IMG/VR virus record: IMGVR_UViG_3300042691_021530
Span: 1-31,771 of that record
Length of the DNA stretch: 31,771 nt
Source: a virus
Direction: 5' to 3' (one strand)
Numbering within the stretch: the stretch's first letter is position 1; every line of letters begins with the position of its first letter. This document shows, piece after piece, positions 32 through 9,287 of this stretch. The notes beneath the pieces were generated by a model. It was not told the DNA's origin and did not search any database. It was given only the letters and a program-made list of their open reading frames with translations. Position numbers and translations under genes: made by a program.

Positions 32-502
32 ATGGGAACGCGAGGTCCGATCCCAAAACCGGACAGCAGTGAAACCAAGCGAGGCAGGAACACGCGGCAC
101 CGCAAGGCCCCGACGCCCAAGCTGACCGGCGAGTTGGAGGTCCCGGCGACCGTCGCGGCCCGGCCCGCAGCCGCTCGGTTCTGGACGATCCACGCCCCCT
201 CCCTGGCTGATGACGGCCGGCTCGGCCCCGTCCAGGTCGAGACGTTCGGGATCCTCTGCCACCTGTTCGCGGACTGCGAGCAGCTCACCGAGCAGCTCGG
301 GTCCGAGGGCTGGATCACGGCGACCGAGAAGGGACAGGCGGCATCCCCCGTGGCAAAGCTCCTGCGGGACGCCCGCCGGGACTACGTCGCGCTCGCGAAG
401 GAGTTCGGCCTGACCGCGGCGGCCGCCGCCCGTATCCCGCAGGAAGCCCCGAGTGAAGAAGAAGCCGACACGCTCCGCGCGTTCATCGACGGCACCGCGT
501 AA
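32..502 (+). CDS. terS: Terminase small subunit, P27 family
   Basis: The protein (156 aa) recognises phage DNA and hands it to the large terminase for packaging. It opens with the GTRGPIPKP motif typical of P27-type small terminases and continues into a basic, low-complexity N-terminus. A helical body follows, with the family-like stretch around SPVAKLLRDARRDY near residues 107-120. The ATG has a Shine-Dalgarno sequence GGGGAG at 17-22. The 3' end overlaps the large-terminase start by about 50 bp, the usual terS-terL coupling. The family call rests on motif and context and is fairly secure. Confidence 0.9.
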   Translation: MGTRGPIPKPDSSETKRGRNTRHRKAPTPKLTGELEVPATVAARPAAARFWTIHAPSLADDGRLGPVQVETFGILCHLFADCEQLTEQLGSEGWITATEKGQAASPVAKLLRDARRDYVALAKEFGLTAAAAARIPQEAPSEEEADTLRAFIDGTA

Positions 503-2105
503 GAAGGCGGCGAAGCCAGCCTGGACCAGGCGGCCCGACTACGTCCCCGGCTACGTCTGGGAACAGCGGCGTGCGGATCGCGTCGTCGATTTCATTCAGA
601 GCCAGGTCGTGATGACCGCCGGCCGCAAGTTTGCCGGGAAGCCGATGCGGCTGATGCCGTGGCAGATCCACGACATCGTCGAGCCGCTGTTCGCCTGGGT
701 CGACGACGACGGCCTCCGCCGCTACCGCCGCGCGGCGATCTACGTCTCGAAGAAGAACGGCAAGTCGTCGCTGATGGCGGCGCTCGTGCTGTACTTCCTG
801 CTCGCGGACCAGGAGCCGGGAGCCGCCGTCTACGGTGCGGCCGTCGACCGGATCCAGGCCGGCATCATCTACCGCTCCGTCGCCGCCGCCGTCCGGGCGA
901 ACCCGCAGCTCGCGAAGGCCCTCGAGGTCGTCGACAGCCGCTCGACGATCGTCCACCAGGAGACGAGCTCGCGCTACGTCTGCCTGGCCGCCGACTCCTG
1001 GCGGGCCGAAGGCATCGACGCCTCGGCCGTCGTGATTGACGAGCTGCACGCCCACCGGAAGCCGGACCTCGTCGAGGCCCTTACCTATGCCGGGGCCGCC
1101 CGGGCGCAGCCGCTCGTCGTGGCGATCTCGACCGCCGGCGAATCGCGGAACGGCATCGGCTATCGGTGGTACCAGGACGCGAAGCTGGTCGAGAAGAATC
1201 CCGAGGCCAACCCGACGTTTTTCGGGAAGGTCTACGAGGCCCCGCAGGACGCGAAGGACTACGCCAGCCCCAAGATCTGGCAGGCCGCGAACCCGTCGCT
1301 CGGCGTGACGATCAGCGAGAAAGACTTCGCCGACGACTACGCCGACAGCCTGACCAACGCCCGCAAGCGGACGGCGTTCCTCCGCTACCGGCTCGGCGTC
1401 TGGGCACAGTCAGACAATCGCTGGTTCCAAGACCCCGACAAGTGGGCGGCCTGCTCGACCGGGCCGCTCGCCCCGACCGACGGCCGCCCCTGCTGGGTCG
1501 GCGTCGACCTGGCGAGCAATCTCGACATGACGGCGGCTTGCTTCCTGTGGAAGGAGAGCGACGGCAGCTACTTCGCACGGTGGAAGGTCTGGGTCCCCGA
1601 GGAAACCGTTCCGGCCCGCGAGCGCGAAGGGATTCCCTACTCGACGTGGATCCGCGACGGATGGGTGACGCCCACGCAAGGGGCGCGGCTCGACCATGAG
1701 CACGTCGCCCGCGACATCCTCGAGGTCGCGGAGCAATCGCGGATTGTGGCCGTCGGCGCTGACCCGTGGCAGGTCGGACCGCTCGCGACGCTACTTCAGC
1801 GGGCGGAGGTGGAAGTTCAGACTGTAGCCCAGCGGACGGGCACGCTGAACGCCCCCTGCAAGCTGCTCGAGGCGCTCGTCGTCGAAGGGAAGCTGCGGAC
1901 GGGCGACCCGCCTAACCCCGTCGCGGCGTGGTCGGCCAACCACGTCTGCGTCTACACCGACCCGACGGGGATGATCAAGCCGGACAAGGCGAAGAGCACG
2001 GAGAAGATCGACCCGATCGTCGCGCTCGTCAACGCCCTGGCGATCGCGAGCACCAGCGACGAGGGCAACACTGACCCGGCCGCCTGGCAGATCATCGAGC
2101 TATGA
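453..2105 (+). CDS. terL: Terminase large subunit (ATPase and nuclease), HK97-like
   Basis: The 550-aa protein is the packaging motor: it translocates DNA into the prohead and cuts the concatemer. The ATPase half has a Walker A-like SKKNGKSS (residues 99-106), Walker B VVIDELHAH (193-201, acidic pair D-E) and coupling motif AISTAGE (224-230). The nuclease half has the expected acidic residues in GVDLAS (D352), GADPWQ (D437) and KIDPIVALVNALA (D520). Length and motif order match Terminase_1-type proteins. The start is GTG with AGGA upstream at 440-443, inside terS. The stop overlaps the portal start as ATGA. Confidence 0.96.
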   Translation: MKKKPTRSARSSTAPRKKAAKPAWTRRPDYVPGYVWEQRRADRVVDFIQSQVVMTAGRKFAGKPMRLMPWQIHDIVEPLFAWVDDDGLRRYRRAAIYVSKKNGKSSLMAALVLYFLLADQEPGAAVYGAAVDRIQAGIIYRSVAAAVRANPQLAKALEVVDSRSTIVHQETSSRYVCLAADSWRAEGIDASAVVIDELHAHRKPDLVEALTYAGAARAQPLVVAISTAGESRNGIGYRWYQDAKLVEKNPEANPTFFGKVYEAPQDAKDYASPKIWQAANPSLGVTISEKDFADDYADSLTNARKRTAFLRYRLGVWAQSDNRWFQDPDKWAACSTGPLAPTDGRPCWVGVDLASNLDMTAACFLWKESDGSYFARWKVWVPEETVPAREREGIPYSTWIRDGWVTPTQGARLDHEHVARDILEVAEQSRIVAVGADPWQVGPLATLLQRAEVEVQTVAQRTGTLNAPCKLLEALVVEGKLRTGDPPNPVAAWSANHVCVYTDPTGMIKPDKAKSTEKIDPIVALVNALAIASTSDEGNTDPAAWQIIEL

Positions 2106-3649
2106 GCAAGACCCGCAAGACGCCCGCCCCTAAGAAGCCGCGGGCGCCCCGCCGGCCGGCCGCCAGCCACGAGCCGCAGACGTTCTCCATGCGGTCGCTG
2201 TCGCTGGTCGATCCGCTCGGCCTGTTCGACTCGTCCCTTGCCGGCAAGCCCGAGACGGCGATCCGCGTCACGGCGATCCTCGCGGTCGTCCGGTTCCTCG
2301 CCCAGGCCGTGGCGTCCATGCCCGGCCACATCGTCCGGACGCTGCCCACCGGCCGGCGTGACGCCGCCGACGACCTGCCCGTCGCCTACGTCCTGGGCAA
2401 ACGGCCCAACCCGTGGCAGAGCTCGTACGAGTTCTGGGAGTGGGTTGTCTACACGACCGCGCTCTACGGGAATTCGTTCGCGAAGATCATCCCCGGCCCG
2501 CGGGGCTTCTGCTCCGAGCTGCGGCCGCTGCACCCGACACGGATCAAGGTCGAGAGGTTGTCGGACTACTCGGTCCAGTACTCCTACTTCGAGGCGGACG
2601 GCCGCTGGAAGCCGCTCCGCCAGGGCGAGGTCCTGCACGTTCGGTGGCTCTCCGAGAACGGCCTGGTGGGCATGGCGCCGCCCGAGCTGTGCGCGACGTC
2701 GATCGCCCTGGCCCGGTCCATCGACAGCGCGGCGACGAGCTACTGGGAGAACAGCGCCCGCCCCGATCTCGTCCTGGAGACGCAGGAGACGATCCCGGCC
2801 GAGGCCGTGGCCGCCCTGCGGCAACAGATGCGGGACCTCTACGGCGGCACGGGCAAGCGCGGGTCCGCCGCCGTGCTCCCCCGCAAGATGCAGCTCAAGA
2901 CGATCGACGGGAACACGGCCGAGCAGTCGCAGCTCATTGAGCTGCGAAACGCAGTCGTCGCCGACGTGGCCCGCTGCTGGGGCGTGCCGAGCACGCTGAT
3001 CGGCGACGCGACGATGAACAAGTGGAGCACCGTCGAGCAGGAGCACCTCTCCGCACAGGTCTGGTGCCTGCTGCCGTGGCAGCGCCGGATCGAGGGCGCC
3101 GTCGACCGGACGATCCTGTCGACCTACCAGGAGCAGGGCGACTCGGTCTACTTCAAGCTCGACAACCGCGGCCTCCTGCGGGGCGACACGGCGAGCCGCG
3201 TGCAGCTCTACTCGTCGCTGTGGCAGCAGGGCGCGATCAGCCCCAATGAGATCCGCGACCTCGAGGACCTGCCCCTCCTCGACACGCCGGCCGCCGACCA
3301 GACCTACGTCCAGCTCGGGTTCTCTACGCTCGACAACGCCGCCGCGGCCGTCGCGATGCCGGGGGCGCCGGCGGAGCCGCAGCCGACGCCAGACGCCGAG
3401 GACGGCTACGGCGAGAGCGTCGACCAGGCCGGCGGGTTCTCCGTCGGCCAATACGTCTACTGGGCCGACGGCGAGGGCACGATCGAGCACCTGATGACCG
3501 CCGGCCTTCTCGGCGTCGAGGGCTCGCCGTTTGCCATTCAAGCGACGCCGGACGACCCGGCCGCCCTGGTCCGGATTCATCGCGACGGCAGCGCTACGGA
3601 GCTGCTCGTCGGCAAGCGGACGGCGGAGCTGTCCGCGGAGCCAGTGTAG
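2102..3649 (+). CDS. Portal protein, HK97 family, with extra C-terminal Tudor-like domain
   Basis: The 515-aa protein forms the dodecameric portal ring through which DNA enters and leaves the capsid. HK97-portal hallmarks are visible: AILAVVRFLAQAVASMP near the start of the core, PNPWQSSYEFWEWVV, TTALYGNSFAKI, and a C-terminal core with WGVPSTLIGD and NEIRDLEDLP. A basic Lys/Pro-rich leader of about 25 residues precedes the core. Residues about 446-511 form a separate small domain (FSVGQYVYW ... ATPDDPAALVRIH ... ELLVGKRTAEL). I recognise it as the Tudor/SH3-like accessory domain usually found on other phage head proteins. The start overlaps the terL stop. Confidence 0.94.
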   Translation: MSKTRKTPAPKKPRAPRRPAASHEPQTFSMRSLSLVDPLGLFDSSLAGKPETAIRVTAILAVVRFLAQAVASMPGHIVRTLPTGRRDAADDLPVAYVLGKRPNPWQSSYEFWEWVVYTTALYGNSFAKIIPGPRGFCSELRPLHPTRIKVERLSDYSVQYSYFEADGRWKPLRQGEVLHVRWLSENGLVGMAPPELCATSIALARSIDSAATSYWENSARPDLVLETQETIPAEAVAALRQQMRDLYGGTGKRGSAAVLPRKMQLKTIDGNTAEQSQLIELRNAVVADVARCWGVPSTLIGDATMNKWSTVEQEHLSAQVWCLLPWQRRIEGAVDRTILSTYQEQGDSVYFKLDNRGLLRGDTASRVQLYSSLWQQGAISPNEIRDLEDLPLLDTPAADQTYVQLGFSTLDNAAAAVAMPGAPAEPQPTPDAEDGYGESVDQAGGFSVGQYVYWADGEGTIEHLMTAGLLGVEGSPFAIQATPDDPAALVRIHRDGSATELLVGKRTAELSAEPV

Positions 3650-3658
3650 GAGGGAACC

Positions 3659-4624
3659 GTGAACACGCCCGAGCGCCGCTATCTGCCGACCAACGACTAC
3701 CCCGACGCGATTCGCGTCGAGAAGCGTGACGGCCAGCCGACGATCCTCACCGGCATCTCCCCGCCGTGGGACTCGCTGTCGGCCGACCTCGGCGGCTTCC
3801 GCGAGAAGTTCTCACCGACCGCGTTCGACGGCATCGTCGACCGGCACCCCAACGACCCCCGCCCTAAGCTCGACGTCCCGTTCCTCCGCGACCACGACCC
3901 GAGCCTGATCACCGGCCGGACGACGAACGGCCGCCTCGAGATTTTCAAGGACGCGAAGGGCCTCGGCTACCGCCACGACCCGATCCAGACCTCGGCGGGC
4001 CGCGACCTGCTGATGCTCGTCGAGGACCGCACGATCACCGGCGCCTCGTTCGCGTTCACGACCGCCCCCGACGGCGAAGTATGGACGGAGGACGACAAGG
4101 GCAATCCGATCCGGACGATCTACCGGGCCTCGGGCCTGTACGACATCTCGGCCGTGACGTACCCGGCTTACCCGAGCTCGAGCATCGCTCCCCGGTCGCT
4201 CGACGCCTGGCGGGCCGCGCGTGGAGTTGTCGGCGAGTCGTCCGGCCTCACGATCTCTCTCGACTACGACCAGACCTACACCGCGGCCCCCGGGCTCTGG
4301 CGGTCGTTCATCCTCGACGCCGGCAACCGCGGCGCGAAGGTCGTCTGCATCACTCGCCGGGCCGACACGCCCGAGAACCGGGCCGCCGTCCAGGCCGGCT
4401 TCGGTGACGCGTATGAGGCCCTCGCCGGCGTGGTGCTCTGCGGACCCGACACGCTCAAGCGGGCGGCCGCCGAGGCCGCCGGGATCGACGTCGATATCTG
4501 GATCGACGATTCGCCCCAGCTCATCGGCGAGCCGGCGAAGCGTTCGGTCGTGGCGACGACGGACATCGGCCGCCGGGCAGCGGCCGCGGCAGCGATCGCG
4601 AGGCTCCGTCATGCAGCCGGCTAA
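3659..4624 (+). CDS. Prohead protease (S78) fused to a HAD-like domain
   Basis: Residues 1 to about 185 are an HK97 gp4-like maturation protease that would cleave the capsid delta domain. It has the catalytic-type His in LRDHDPSLITGRT (H79), the Ser in ITGASFAF (S130) and the closing DISAVTYPAYPSS. After a short linker, residues about 197-290 carry all four HAD-superfamily motifs in order: ISLDYDQTYT (D202, D204), VVCITRR (T232), Lys in DTLKRAAAEAAGI (K267) and DIWIDDSP (D283, D284). The two domains share one continuous reading frame. The start is GTG with GGAGGG at 3649-3654. The HAD substrate is unknown; self-cleavage by the protease could release the domain. Confidence 0.9.
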   Translation: MNTPERRYLPTNDYPDAIRVEKRDGQPTILTGISPPWDSLSADLGGFREKFSPTAFDGIVDRHPNDPRPKLDVPFLRDHDPSLITGRTTNGRLEIFKDAKGLGYRHDPIQTSAGRDLLMLVEDRTITGASFAFTTAPDGEVWTEDDKGNPIRTIYRASGLYDISAVTYPAYPSSSIAPRSLDAWRAARGVVGESSGLTISLDYDQTYTAAPGLWRSFILDAGNRGAKVVCITRRADTPENRAAVQAGFGDAYEALAGVVLCGPDTLKRAAAEAAGIDVDIWIDDSPQLIGEPAKRSVVATTDIGRRAAAAAAIARLRHAAG

Positions 4625-4769
4625 CTGCCAGCGGTGCGGGGCACGGATGCGGACGGTCTCGTCCAAGCGGCACGGGACCGCCCAGGTCCAATACCTCGCC
4701 TGCACGGCCTGCCCGGCGAAGCGGTCCCGGGTCGTCGACGCGGCCCACGTCTGGAGGAGGAAGAAATGA
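4611..4769 (+). CDS. Small zinc-ribbon protein
   Basis: This 52-aa protein has two Cys pairs, NCQRCGA near the N-terminus and ACTACPA near residue 35, spaced as in a treble-clef or zinc-ribbon fold, and ends in a basic tail. It starts 14 bp before the protease stop and its TGA overlaps the next gene's ATG (ATGA), so it is translationally coupled on both sides. A role in nucleic-acid or protein binding is plausible but not shown. I do not recognise a named family. Confidence 0.75.
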   Translation: MQPANCQRCGARMRTVSSKRHGTAQVQYLACTACPAKRSRVVDAAHVWRRKK

Positions 4770-5137
4770 TCTCAAGCGCCCCCGCCCACGCCGCGAGCGA
4801 CGTCGCCGAAGTCACCGAGAAGATCTCGGCGTTTATAGCGGTCGCCCGCGTCAAGGCCCGCGACGGCCTGACGGTCGCCGAGTTCGGCGAGCTGACGGTC
4901 GCCCTGATGCGGATCGTGATCGCAGCGGTCGACGTCCTGGCGATCGACGGCAGCCGCCGGAAGGAGGTCGTCCTCGAGGCGGTGGCCGCCCTGTTCGACG
5001 CCGTGGCCGACAAGGCCGTCCCGACGCTGGCCTGGCCGGTCTGGTTGATCGTCCGCCCGACCGTCCGCCAGCTCGTCCTCCTCGCGGCCGCCGGCGCCGT
5101 CGAGAGCCTCCTGCCCCTCGTGAGGATCGCCTCGTGA
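4766..5137 (+). CDS. Hypothetical protein with C-terminal hydrophobic segment
   Basis: The protein is 123 aa. The ATG at 4766 is preceded by GGAGGAGG at 4753-4760, a very strong ribosome site, so this start is preferred over upstream in-frame ATGs. The first 80 residues look helical and amphipathic (LTVAEFGELTVALMRIVIAAVDVL). Residues about 85-120 form a hydrophobic hairpin-like region starting at LAWPVWLIVRP. It could be a holin-like or membrane-associated phage protein, but I recognise no family. It opens a run of membrane proteins that interrupts the usual protease-capsid order. Confidence 0.75.
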   Translation: MISSAPAHAASDVAEVTEKISAFIAVARVKARDGLTVAEFGELTVALMRIVIAAVDVLAIDGSRRKEVVLEAVAALFDAVADKAVPTLAWPVWLIVRPTVRQLVLLAAAGAVESLLPLVRIAS

Positions 5138-5676
5138 CGTCCGTCGTCCTGCTGATCGCCGCCGCCGCCGTGCTGCTCTGGCCGTCGCTCTCCGAGCGGT
5201 TCGGGAAGCTCACGCTCCCCAAGCTCGACGGGAAGCAGCTCGTCGCCCTCGGCCTGGCGGCTGTCGGCGTGGCGCTCCTGTTCACCGGCCGGTCGGCCGG
5301 CCCGACGCCGGCCCCGCCCGAGCCCGCGGCGTTCACGCTCCGCGGGAAGTTCGTCGGACCCGACGCCAGCCGGGACGCCAGCACAACGGCCGCCCTGCTC
5401 GACGAGCTCGCCAACGAGATCGAGTGGGACGGGATGCAACCGGAACCCTACCTGAAGACGGGCGTCTCGTTTGACGACCTGCGGGTCCGGGCTCGGAACC
5501 TGCTCTGCCGGGGCGTGAGCCTGGGCGACAAGCACCCGCGGGCACGCGAGGCAATCAAGGCTTACCTCGACCAGGCCGCCGGCACGAGCGGCGGGCCGGT
5601 CTCGCCCCAACAGCGGGCCGCCTGGGTTGCGGCCTACCGCGAAGTCGCGAGGGCCGCCGCCGATGCGTCGCGATGA
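5134..5676 (+). CDS. Hypothetical membrane protein, two N-terminal TM segments
   Basis: This 180-aa protein starts with GTG in a GTGA overlap with the previous stop. Residues about 3-17 (SVVLLIAAAAVLLWP) and 36-51 (LVALGLAAVGVALLFT) are transmembrane segments separated by a short charged loop. A Pro-rich linker and a soluble helical domain of about 115 residues follow. The topology would place the soluble domain on one face of the membrane, next to the anchored peptidase encoded immediately downstream. The function is unknown; a lysis-accessory or exclusion role is only an inference from context. Confidence 0.75.
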   Translation: MTSVVLLIAAAAVLLWPSLSERFGKLTLPKLDGKQLVALGLAAVGVALLFTGRSAGPTPAPPEPAAFTLRGKFVGPDASRDASTTAALLDELANEIEWDGMQPEPYLKTGVSFDDLRVRARNLLCRGVSLGDKHPRAREAIKAYLDQAAGTSGGPVSPQQRAAWVAAYREVARAAADASR

Positions 5677-6766
5677 CCGCCTGCCACAACTGATGGCCGC
5701 GGCCCTGCTGGCCGGCATGGCCTTCGTCGTGTCGCTCGAGCTGCTCTGGCGCGAGCGGCCGGCCGCCGTCGGCGGGAACCAGTTCGGCTACACGCCGGAC
5801 CCCGAGGGCGTGGCCGCCTTTATGGCGTCCCTTCCGCAGCCGATGTTCCGGCAGGCCGGGGCGGACGCGATGGCAAAGTCGAAGGGGCTCGACACGTTCC
5901 TCTTCCGCGCCATGCAGAAGGCGCACCGCGCGCGGTACGGTTCCGACTTTGTCGTCGGAAAGCAGCTCAACGGGAGCTGCGTCGCGTGGGGGGCAATGCA
6001 CGCTGTCTTTTGCGCGGAGGCCGTGTCGTGGGAGCTGGGCGAGCTCCAAGATCCGCCGACGCTTCCCGCGACCGAGCCACTGTACGGAGGATCGCGCGTC
6101 GAGGCGAGGCGAGGGAACCCTCAAGGGTATGACGGTTCCTCGCCCGTTGGCGGATGGTCCGACGGCTCGTTCGGGGCAGCGGCCGCCCGCTGGCTCCGCG
6201 ACTGGGGCGTGATCTACCGCAAGCCATACGAGGGCCTGTTTGACTACACGACGTACGACGCGACCCGCGAGAAGCACGAGGGCGCGTACGGAGCCGGCGG
6301 CCAGGGCGACAACTACCGGATCGACACGCTCGCCAAAAAGCACCCGTGTAAGCACGTCGTAAAAGTGTCCACCTGGGAGGAGCTCTCGGCAGCTCTGGAG
6401 TCTGGGTACCCGTGCACGGTCGCCAGCTCGCAGGGCTTCGACTCTGTCGCGATCAAGGGCATCGCCGAGGCCGGCGGGACGTGGCAACACCAGATGATGA
6501 TCTGCGGGATCGTCCACAAGAAAAACGGCAACGCGCCCGACGACCTCGCGTGCATCCTCAACAGTTGGGGACCTCGCTGGCTCCGGTACGAGGGCGGCAA
6601 GTTCCCGGCAGACCTTCCAGACGGCGCCTTCTGGGCCAGGAGGAGCGTCGTCGAGCGGATGATCTCGTCCGACACATGGGCGATCGGTGGCGTCGGAGGG
6701 TTTTCGTACCGCGACCTTCATAACGGCAACTGGCTCACCCCTGCACCGGAGGAAAATGTGAGATGA
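5663..6766 (+). CDS. Membrane-anchored papain-like cysteine peptidase (C1-like)
   Basis: The 367-aa protein starts at an ATG 14 bp inside the previous gene, preceded by GAGGG. An N-terminal hydrophobic anchor spans residues about 11-29. The peptidase core has a C1-like triad: Cys106 in LNGSCVAWGA with a nearby Gln101 (oxyanion-type), His276 in TWQHQMMICGI, and Asn300 in CILNSWGPRW, which matches the papain NSWG signature. About 40 residues after the NSWG motif complete the fold. It could cleave envelope proteins or peptide cross-links during lysis, or process virion or host proteins. A cysteine peptidase inside a head-gene cluster is unusual. The fold is fairly sure; the role is not. Confidence 0.85.
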   Translation: MRRDDRLPQLMAAALLAGMAFVVSLELLWRERPAAVGGNQFGYTPDPEGVAAFMASLPQPMFRQAGADAMAKSKGLDTFLFRAMQKAHRARYGSDFVVGKQLNGSCVAWGAMHAVFCAEAVSWELGELQDPPTLPATEPLYGGSRVEARRGNPQGYDGSSPVGGWSDGSFGAAAARWLRDWGVIYRKPYEGLFDYTTYDATREKHEGAYGAGGQGDNYRIDTLAKKHPCKHVVKVSTWEELSAALESGYPCTVASSQGFDSVAIKGIAEAGGTWQHQMMICGIVHKKNGNAPDDLACILNSWGPRWLRYEGGKFPADLPDGAFWARRSVVERMISSDTWAIGGVGGFSYRDLHNGNWLTPAPEENVR

Positions 6767-7017
6767 CGCTCGACCGGAAGACCTTGATCACCGTCGCCGC
6801 CGCCCTGGCCGTGGGCTACTGGCTCGCGGGCCGCGAAGCTACGCCGGCCCCGCCGGATCGCCCCGTCCTCCGCTGGGTCGTGAAGGCCGCGAAGAATTTG
6901 CTCTGGGTCGCGCTCATCGCCGAGGAGCCGCCGGCCGAGCCCGAGAACAGCTACCGCCACCACGACCACGTCGGGGCCGACGGCTACCGCCTGGTCGACC
7001 ACGGGAGGGGCTGGTGA
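6763..7017 (+). CDS. Small membrane protein
   Basis: This 84-aa protein has a TM helix at residues about 7-22 (TLITVAAALAVGYWLAG) and a second amphipathic or hydrophobic segment at 38-52 (WVVKAAKNLLWVALI), followed by a polar, His-containing tail. GGAGGA lies at 6748-6753, the ATG overlaps the peptidase stop (ATGA), and the 3' end overlaps the next gene. It sits directly after the anchored peptidase. It might assist export or act as a small holin, but no family is recognised. Confidence 0.7.
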   Translation: MTLDRKTLITVAAALAVGYWLAGREATPAPPDRPVLRWVVKAAKNLLWVALIAEEPPAEPENSYRHHDHVGADGYRLVDHGRGW

Positions 7018-7280
7018 TGCGCGACGCCCTGATCTCGTTCCTGGTCTGGTTGTCGGCCGAGCCGGCGGCCCTCGAGCTCGACCCGCCCCGAGCCGCGGCC
7101 GCCGTCGCGGCCGCCAGGTCGTCGCTGGCGGTCGAGGCCCCCGCCCCGCCGGCACCGAGCCCCACGCCCGAGAAGTGCTGCTCCGACTGCGGCGGCACCG
7201 GCGTGATCGTTCACGGCGACGGCCACCGCACGCCCTGCCCCTGCCCGGCTAGCTGCCCCTGCAAGAGGACCAAGAAATGA
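7017..7280 (+). CDS. Small protein with Cys-rich (DnaJ-type) C-terminus
   Basis: The protein is 87 aa from the ATG at 7017 (a GTG at 7014 is equally usable). GGAGG lies at 7004-7008. It has a short hydrophobic N-terminus, an Ala/Pro-rich middle, and a C-terminus with eight cysteines including CSDCGGTGV, which is the CxxCxGxG element of DnaJ zinc fingers, followed by PCPCPASCPCK. It probably binds zinc. It is the last of the compact membrane/zinc cassette; its stop overlaps the next ATG. Confidence 0.7.
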   Translation: MRDALISFLVWLSAEPAALELDPPRAAAAVAAARSSLAVEAPAPPAPSPTPEKCCSDCGGTGVIVHGDGHRTPCPCPASCPCKRTKK

Positions 7281-7969
7281 GCACTGAATTTTCCCTGTCG
7301 TCTCGGATCACCGTGAGCCCCCGCCAGGAAGGCGACGGATTCCTCCAGGCCCCGTCCGTCGTCTCGACGTTCGCCCTGACGGACGGCAGCAGCGACGGCC
7401 AGGCGAACGCCATGTGGCATAAAGAATTGACGATCGCCGCGGACTCGTCGCAGACGCTCGACCTGACGAGCCTAAGCGTGAACGCGTTCGGGCTGTCCGG
7501 AAACCTGTACTTCTGGAAAATCCGCACGCTGTATATCTGCAACACCTCGACCACGACCCCGGTCACGGTGTTCGCCGAAGACGCGGAAAATAATCCTTGG
7601 CAGGCGCTCTACACCGTGCCGATCGACCTCGCCCCGGGCGGAACGCTGCTGGCGATGGACCGGGCCGGCTGGCTCGTCGGCGGGTCGAGCAAGACGATCA
7701 AGATCGCCAACGACTCGACGATTTACTCGATCACCGGCGACACGACGAGCGGCTCGACGGTCGTCTCGGACATCGAGGACACCGACGACCTGGCCGTCGG
7801 CATGACGGTCACCGGGACCGGCATCCCGACCGGCGCGAAGGTGGTCCAGAAGACGGCGTCGACGATCACCCTAAGCGCGGCCGCCACGGCCACGACAGGC
7901 AACGTATCGCTGAATGTGTTCCTGCCCGACCCGGTCGTGGTCTTCAGCCTGGCCGGCGTGCTGGACTGA
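7277..7969 (+). CDS. Probable head decoration or accessory structural protein
   Basis: The 230-aa protein is rich in Thr, Ser and Val with beta-strand character throughout. Residues about 150-215 hold a recognisable small beta module (TTSGSTVVSDIEDT ... LAVGMTVTGTGIPTGAKV ... TITLSAAATAT) that recurs in phage and bacterial surface proteins. Its place immediately before the major capsid gene is typical of decoration proteins, which is the basis for the call. The start is an ATG in an ATGA overlap. A fibre or minor head protein would fit the sequence equally well. Confidence 0.6.
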   Translation: MSTEFSLSSRITVSPRQEGDGFLQAPSVVSTFALTDGSSDGQANAMWHKELTIAADSSQTLDLTSLSVNAFGLSGNLYFWKIRTLYICNTSTTTPVTVFAEDAENNPWQALYTVPIDLAPGGTLLAMDRAGWLVGGSSKTIKIANDSTIYSITGDTTSGSTVVSDIEDTDDLAVGMTVTGTGIPTGAKVVQKTASTITLSAAATATTGNVSLNVFLPDPVVVFSLAGVLD

Positions 7970-7982
7970 AATTCCTACGATA

Positions 7983-8052
7983 GTCCGCTGCAAACTTCAG
8001 CGGGCGAGCTGGCGGCCTGATTCTGGTGGGCGGTACGGAAACCACCCCACCA
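7983..8052 (+). promoter_or_regulatory. Paired hairpins upstream of the capsid gene
   Basis: This is one of only two real gaps in the head operon. It holds a stem CCGCTG/CAGCGG (7985-7990 with 7998-8003, 7-nt loop) and a second stem TGGTGGG/CCCACCA (8024-8030 with 8046-8052, 15-nt loop). The capsid ATG follows with a modest AGGA at 8057-8060. The hairpins may stabilise the capsid message or mark a processing or regulatory point; no clear -10/-35 pair was seen. Confidence 0.45.
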
Positions 8053-8069
8053 GCACAGGACCCCAGACA

Positions 8070-9287
8070 ATGAAGCTCCGCACGCTCCAGGACGAGTCGG
8101 CAAAGGTTATCGCCGAGCTCGAGACGCTCCGCTCGTTCTCCTCGGACAACGCCGAGGAAGTCGCGACCGCCCAGGCTCGGATCGACGAGCTGTCGGCCCG
8201 GTCCGACAAGATCGCCGCCGATGTTCAGCGGGAGCTCGCCCTTGACGCGAAGCTCGCGGCGCTGCGGACCGTGATCTCGAGCGACTCCGACGCCCGTGGC
8301 GTCGTGGCTCCGGAGCCGGAGCAGAAGGACCTGGCGGCCGAGATCCGCTCGGGCGTCAAGGCGTTCTCCTCGGCGAAGGCCGCGGCGGCCGTCGGCGGCT
8401 ACCTCCGCCAGCTCTACACCGGCGAGATCCGGGCGATGGGCGAGACGAGCACGACGTACGACCTTCTCGGTGCCGAGTTCGTCGTGAAGGAGCTCTATAA
8501 CGCGATCGTGAACCGGCTCCAGTACAGCTCGGTCGCGCTCCAGCTCGCGACGGTGGTCCGGCCCAACGGCCAGAAGATCTCCTTCCCGAAGGTGGGCGAC
8601 GCCACCGCGTCGTTCGTGGCCGAAGGCGTGGCGACGTCCGACCAGGACATCGCGACCAGTGCCGCCGACCTGACGCTCTATGAGCTGCGGGCAAGCGTCG
8701 CCGTCTCGCGGAGCCTGATCGAGGACAGCCCGATCGACGTGGCCGGCCTCGTGGCGGAGCGGTTCGCTCTGGCCTACGCGAGCAAGTTCGACGCGACCTG
8801 GCTCGGCGGCAACGCCTCCAGCCCGTCGATCACCGGCCTGGCGGCCTCGGTGGCTGGTGGCAACACCATCACCGTCGGCGTCAGTGCCGCGACGACCGTC
8901 GCCAACCTGGCCGACGTGGTCGGCAAGGTCGACGAGACCCTGATGGGATCGGCCTCGTGGGTCTGCTCGAAGGCAGGCTGGGTCGATCTCATGAAGCTCT
9001 GGGCGGCCCAGCAGACGACCATGACGGTCGGCGGCGGGCGGATCGTTCCGACGATCTTCGGTGCCCCGGTCTACCTCGTGAAGGGTTTGCCCGCGACGAC
9101 GCTCGCCCTGTACGGCGACTTCTCGATGGCATCGGCCGTCGGCCTCAAGGCGTCCGGCCTCGAGATCGAAGCCGGCCGCGAGATCCTGATGCGGAATCGT
9201 CAGGTCCTGTACGTGGCGAACACCCGGTTCGGCGTGGCTAACCACGCCCCCGAGTTCGTCGGTCGCCTGGCGAAGGCCACCTCGTAG
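8070..9287 (+). CDS. Major capsid protein, HK97 fold
   Basis: The 405-aa protein assembles the icosahedral head. Residues 1 to about 100 are charged and coiled-coil-like, as expected of a delta scaffolding domain removed by the S78 protease. The remainder has HK97-type features: VVRPNGQKISFPKV, then FVAEGVATSDQD, LYELRASVAVSRSLIEDSP, AERFALAYASKFDATWLGG and the C-terminal REILMRNRQVLYVANTRFG. The start at 8070 is chosen because upstream in-frame sequence is non-coding in character and crosses the hairpin region. A strong hairpin lies just after the stop. Confidence 0.94.
   Translation: MKLRTLQDESAKVIAELETLRSFSSDNAEEVATAQARIDELSARSDKIAADVQRELALDAKLAALRTVISSDSDARGVVAPEPEQKDLAAEIRSGVKAFSSAKAAAAVGGYLRQLYTGEIRAMGETSTTYDLLGAEFVVKELYNAIVNRLQYSSVALQLATVVRPNGQKISFPKVGDATASFVAEGVATSDQDIATSAADLTLYELRASVAVSRSLIEDSPIDVAGLVAERFALAYASKFDATWLGGNASSPSITGLAASVAGGNTITVGVSAATTVANLADVVGKVDETLMGSASWVCSKAGWVDLMKLWAAQQTTMTVGGGRIVPTIFGAPVYLVKGLPATTLALYGDFSMASAVGLKASGLEIEAGREILMRNRQVLYVANTRFGVANHAPEFVGRLAKATS

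Follow-up and report, generated by a model that had tools for sequence, protein, structure and literature searches.

A HAD-like domain joined in frame to an S78 prohead protease, and to portals in related phages

The gene at positions 3659-4624 (plus strand) of the window, that is, of the whole 31.8 kb stretch of viral DNA analysed, encodes an S78 prohead protease whose C-terminal half is confirmed, as judged from sequence and models, as a complete HAD-like domain. In sister phages with a HAD-less protease, the HAD is borne near the C-terminus of the HK97-type portal (loci L356 and L330). We think it probable that this HAD is an enzymatic cargo of head-morphogenesis proteins, probably injected and acting on the phosphates of nucleic acids or nucleotides.

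Organization of the fusion protein and its locus

The head module of the window follows the order terminase small subunit, terminase large subunit (453-2105, plus strand; phrog_9, E 4.5e-142), portal, protease, several small genes and capsid protein. The protease gene lies between that of an HK97-type portal, here without HAD (2102-3649, plus strand; Pfam Phage_portal, E 1.3e-77), and that of an HK97-fold major capsid protein (8070-9287, plus strand; phrog_10, E 1.5e-38 for the ORF 7914-9287), whose start at 8070 and helical, delta-like N-terminal region were picked by eye. Cleavage of the capsid protein and of itself in the prohead is a trait of the S78 family, and this capsid protein is the expected substrate. 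Small genes of an unusual kind fill the interval between protease and capsid genes (4634-7969), and several of them, judged by eye, probably encode membrane segments; one ORF (5627-6766) appears cysteine-protease-like by eye (NGSCVAWG) and matched nothing in Pfam, PHROGs or the PDB.

The fusion protein starts at a GTG codon and its 321 residues are read in a single frame. Its protease domain (residues 20-179; 3716-4195, plus strand) matches the Pfam family PF04586 (E 3.2e-28, 99.4 bits for a cut-off of 21) and phrog_80 in PHROGs (E 1.4e-31), with a TIGR01543 score of 56.8, just below the family cut-off of 59. Residues 1-168 of the full-length model resemble the T4 gp21 protease (5jbl, Z 11.0). 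H79 and S130, which by S78/S21 protease background we take to be the catalytic pair, are unchanged in all 95 distinct fused sequences compared. The protein is thus like members of the HK97 prohead protease family (PF04586/TIGR01543) in profile, in its T4 gp21 fold and in the terminase-portal-protease-capsid gene order, but differs from them by the HAD placed ahead of its C-terminal tail.

A helical linker (residues 180-193; 4196-4237, plus strand), part of an AlphaFold2 (AF2) helix spanning residues 176-193, begins inside the motif RSLDAWRAAR and leads to a capless HAD-like domain (residues 197-292, approximately 196-292; 4247-4534, plus strand). The HAD motifs DxDx[TV], [ST], K and DD are present in the expected order, as D202, D204 and T206, then T232 followed by R233 and R234, then K267, and finally D283 and D284. 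The positions of the four motifs given by the first-pass annotation proved exact, with fold and phage profiles in agreement, and its description of a linker in one frame with no lost stop also holds, the same in-frame fusion being found in independent contigs.

Two PHROGs profiles of unknown function cover residues 197-315, namely phrog_4256 (E 3.7e-15) and phrog_4919 (E 6.7e-14). No curated HAD profile in Pfam or NCBIfam recognised the HAD half of the window, and Pfam returned one weak match to Hydrolase_3 (E 0.017) among 34 relatives. Because no Pfam HAD family matches this half, the assignment leans on motifs and fold. The AF2 model of the HAD alone, built from 37 sequences, has a pLDDT of 92.8, a pTM of 0.74 and the strand order of a HAD. 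When Foldseek's candidates were re-aligned with VIA-align, from which the Z-scores given here come, the T4 PNK phosphatase was the top structural match (1rrc, Z 10.4 over 98 residues at 2.9 Å; 5uj0, Z 10.0), with Pnkp1 (Z 9.2), MDP-1 (Z 8.5) and a baculovirus nucleocapsid chain (8i8b, Z 7.2) also among the matches. By Foldseek's own scoring, neither the HAD-only nor the full-length model had a PDB match at E <= 0.001. A PDB sequence search with the HAD of the window returned nothing useful; with the A3 profile, AphA came up at E 0.003, behind a designed protein. In the viral model library, the best matches were small phage proteins, mostly unnamed, one of them named HAD-like. Three BFVD entries named prohead protease or XkdF (A0A6J5MQJ8, A0A6J7WPK9, A0A6J5N6Z6) displayed a weak structural match to the HAD model and may be additional fusions of a HAD, to proteases of a different family.

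The spacing between DxD and motif II is too short for a cap domain, and capless HADs frequently act on large substrates. The fold would fit a PNKP-type 3'-phosphatase; we make no claim of membership in that group, and likeness of fold has no power to give the substrate. The window's HAD resembles the T4 PNK 3'-phosphatase domain as its best structural match and in the second motif, [ST]-x-R in the T4 PNK phosphatase. It differs in being only about 15% identical, in having no kinase domain and in being fused to a protease (a portal in relatives), and its activity is a predicted one.

Downstream of the HAD, the protein ends in a helical tail (residues 300-321; 4556-4621, plus strand; AF2 helix 302-320) that resembles the tail of HAD-less sister proteases, some of which score as high as the fused ones. 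The RSLDAWRAAR motif also occurs in S78 proteases without HAD. In HAD-less sisters, RSLEAWR is followed by a short stretch and an Ala/Arg-rich C-terminal helix; in the fused proteins, RSLDAWRAAR is followed by the HAD and then by a helix similar to that one. Compared with the fused tail, 20 of 39 HAD-less tails were more alike than their own shuffles (p <= 0.05), a moderate test in which the fused-tail profile was anchored automatically and may include some misplaced tails. In the simplest reading of these sequences, the HAD appears to have been inserted behind the protease core and ahead of the terminal helix that belongs to the protease. The linker has no conserved start codon, which speaks against a free HAD made from an internal start.

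Conservation of the HAD and its different carriers

The counts below are lower bounds, and because loci were gathered by HAD or protease queries they are not frequencies; the contigs are mostly fragments. A search with the protease domain recovered more than 60 loci, with the HAD in frame wherever identity exceeded 50% and the ORF was uncut. At least 95 distinct near-complete protease-HAD sequences, that of the window included, are present in viral contigs, with proteases 47-100% identical to that of the window, so the fusion, which had been proposed for checking in relatives, is not a sequencing artefact. D202, D204, T206, R233, R234, K267, D283 and D284 are invariant in 95 fused sequences and position 232 is T or S. 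The HAD motifs, with the same T/S alternative, are also unchanged across 97 S78 and 51 portal versions, in domains down to about 50% identity. The HAD part is under purifying selection: over 31 independent close pairs, to which the estimate was limited because saturated pairs give inflated values, the HAD has a pooled dN/dS of 0.20 and the S78 domain one of 0.12.

The HAD has also been swapped between proteases. HADs that are 97-100% identical are found on proteases merely 51-56% identical, and proteases 99% identical bear HADs just 56% identical; this exchange of modules agrees better with a cargo than with a domain that co-evolved with its protease. A fusion 70% identical to ours lies on a 40 kb phage-like contig of a Planctomycetaceae MAG, a hint at the hosts; the 392 Planctomycetota genomes searched yielded one full fusion and eight S78-only matches. 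In cultured phages, searched by tblastn with three HAD queries, the matches listed included none annotated as portal or protease and were mostly free-standing genes.

In total, at least 110 distinct ORFs join the HAD to S78 proteases, 54 to HK97-type portals and two to lambda-type portals; at least 74 other distinct HAD-containing ORFs are mostly single genes. Portal identities were checked with PHROGs and Pfam: the L356 portal belongs to phrog_12 (E 1e-110), and the lambda-type portals (phrog_21) end in a HAD on two contigs. A complete portal and a complete protease were both present in 206 loci. Of these, 97 have the HAD on the protease, 41 on the portal and one in a separate neighbouring gene; none has it on both, and 67 lack it. 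Fisher's test gives p 7e-14 for this exclusivity if loci are independent, which they are not, being related, HAD-enriched and no series of independent events. In eight of eight records of the portal or separate type, a single HAD copy is present.

In a tree of the HAD, based on few columns and with weak deeper forks, HADs encoded on proteases, on HK97-type portals or as separate genes group in a single clade (99/98) that excludes the lambda-portal pair. The tree suggests at least two captures of the HAD by head genes and one or more transfers from portal to protease or the reverse. L321 encodes the HAD as a gene of its own (3332-3706) directly after a HAD-less protease; its last motif Asp is changed to Asn (IDN), and this HAD is perhaps altered or inactive.

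Some phage homologues in phrog_4256 and phrog_4919 are annotated as HAD-like or polynucleotide kinase. The cultured-phage homologues listed are free-standing, whereas the head-fused forms have an extra Arg in motif II (R233 R234 in the window). This Arg-Arg is found in all protease- and HK97-portal-borne HADs, and most single-gene relatives have A, G or M ahead of the motif II Arg; it is possibly the mark of a changed substrate.

Some of these HADs are accompanied by further domains. In L442 (2-1714; IMGVR_UViG_3300034062_001881), portal, HAD and ADP-ribosyltransferase (PF03496, E 2.8e-11) form one open frame. L441 (3185-4309) has an Ntox46 domain (PF15538, E 1.1e-9) attached to a HAD that groups with the portal-type ones. 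L398 combines portal, HAD and TUDOR, and L417 portal and HAD plus a weak LPD1 match; long C-terminal extensions beyond the HAD are also observed in L443, L445, L451 and L452. Separately, a 903-codon frame in L249 (1580-4288) ends in a HAD of the window's family (phrog_4256, E 1.4e-22) after a long N-terminal part.

Possible role of the HAD and competing explanations

Enzymes on head proteins have been described in other phages: Nudix domains on MuF, portal and a capsid-processing serine peptidase, and 2H, PBECR and ART domains on MuF or portal, all predicted to be head-packaged effectors (PMC9503650, PMC5512222). HAD phosphatases are known, too, from phage RNA-repair systems (PMC7824862). Our case has in common with them an enzyme attached to a head protein, the use of both portal and protease as carriers, and a predicted injection. 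It differs in that the enzyme is a HAD, of one family that sits either on the protease or on the portal of a locus and has been exchanged among proteases. The first-pass annotation had presented the fusion as a new combination. This stands for the HAD, as we found no published report, in the open-access literature, of a HAD on a prohead protease or portal; it does not stand more broadly, Nudix on portal and capsid protease being already published. Likewise, its view of S78 proteases as normally single-domain was too strong, since protease-capsid and S78-ClpP fusions occur among the fetched loci. Profile search and structure prediction, which it had suggested for the C-terminal region, gave phrog_4256/4919 and the HAD fold, Pfam being without match for this half. 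Its interpretation is thus partly supported, entry into the capsid, cleavage and phosphatase-type activity staying predicted.

How might such a cargo work? Protease or portal, both acting at the prohead, would enclose an attached HAD in the procapsid. A HAD borne by the protease may be released inside the head during maturation, by auto-processing or by a cut in the linker, and could then leave the head along with the DNA. Once ejected, it could act early in infection by stripping phosphates; nucleic-acid ends or nucleotides are the likeliest substrates because the fold is nearest to the T4 PNK 3'-phosphatase and the active site is uncapped. Enclosure in the capsid, release, injection, catalysis and substrate are steps that we infer. 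The exclusive placement on protease or portal makes delivery by the capsid more likely, and the co-occurrence of portal, HAD and ADP-ribosyltransferase points to effectors. On the other hand, digestion of the protease is common in HK97-like phages, with the pieces exiting the prohead, so that the HAD might be lost, which counts against a cargo. Moreover, numerous relatives stand alone as genes away from head modules, and delivery by the capsid would then be unneeded for the basic function of the domain.

A more specific proposal, which we advance only tentatively, is that protease and portal, never both, repeatedly serve as interchangeable carriers loading a nucleic-acid phosphatase into the capsid, that in the protease version the carrier's cleavage during maturation frees the enzyme to be injected, that the enzyme counters host damage to nucleic acids or signalling on them, and that it passes from carrier to carrier as a swappable effector.

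The main rival to a cargo is a HAD acting in head assembly, which would dephosphorylate a structural or DNA-binding protein in the prohead or help packaging. Both carriers act at the right place, proteins are possible substrates of a capless HAD, and the baculovirus chain 8i8b is among the structural matches. A real precedent is the baculovirus 38K/AC98, likewise a virion-associated HAD needed for nucleocapsid assembly, whose active site is required for P6.9 dephosphorylation and genome packaging (PMC10657434); that protein belongs to a eukaryotic virus, however, and the similarity is a remote one of fold only. We judge an assembly role unlikely, given that the relatives in cultured phages are mostly free-standing, that 67 of the sampled loci, in which portal and protease both lack the HAD and none lies nearby, indicate no general need for it, and that the ADP-ribosyltransferase company speaks for effectors.

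Somewhat less probable again is that fusion serves expression coupling only, the HAD working in the producing cell's cytoplasm, whether still attached or cleaved from its carrier, with its location in the head incidental. The common free-standing relatives and the separate L321 gene right behind its protease agree with this, but repeated covalent joining to two unrelated head proteins and to two lambda-type portals, with no conserved internal start to yield a free HAD, exceeds the needs of operon linkage. Alternatively, the HAD could be a non-catalytic structural module, such as a spacer, a dimeriser or a regulator of the protease. Its position between protease core and tail would suit a spacer, and the free-standing L321 gene has lost the last motif Asp; we nevertheless hold this improbable, as the motif residues are invariant, T or S at position 232 apart, in the protease and portal versions compared despite the divergence of the domains, and sister proteases manage without the HAD. 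An artefact, whether motifs arisen by chance, loss of a stop codon or an error of contig assembly, has as its only pointer that Pfam is blind to the HAD half, and its chance is practically nil: it is ruled out by the identical in-frame fusion in many independent metagenome contigs, purifying selection and a confident fold.

If the HAD is indeed a cargo of the head, its vehicle would be uncommon, few phage-delivered enzymes being known to use a maturation protease. With a small enzyme moving between protease and portal, and one copy per locus seen, its loading into the capsid is directly testable. The two protein families of unknown function phrog_4256 and phrog_4919 gain a predicted fold, active site and activity class. 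More generally, a HAD borne by portal or protease suggests a natural route for loading proteins into HK97-type heads.
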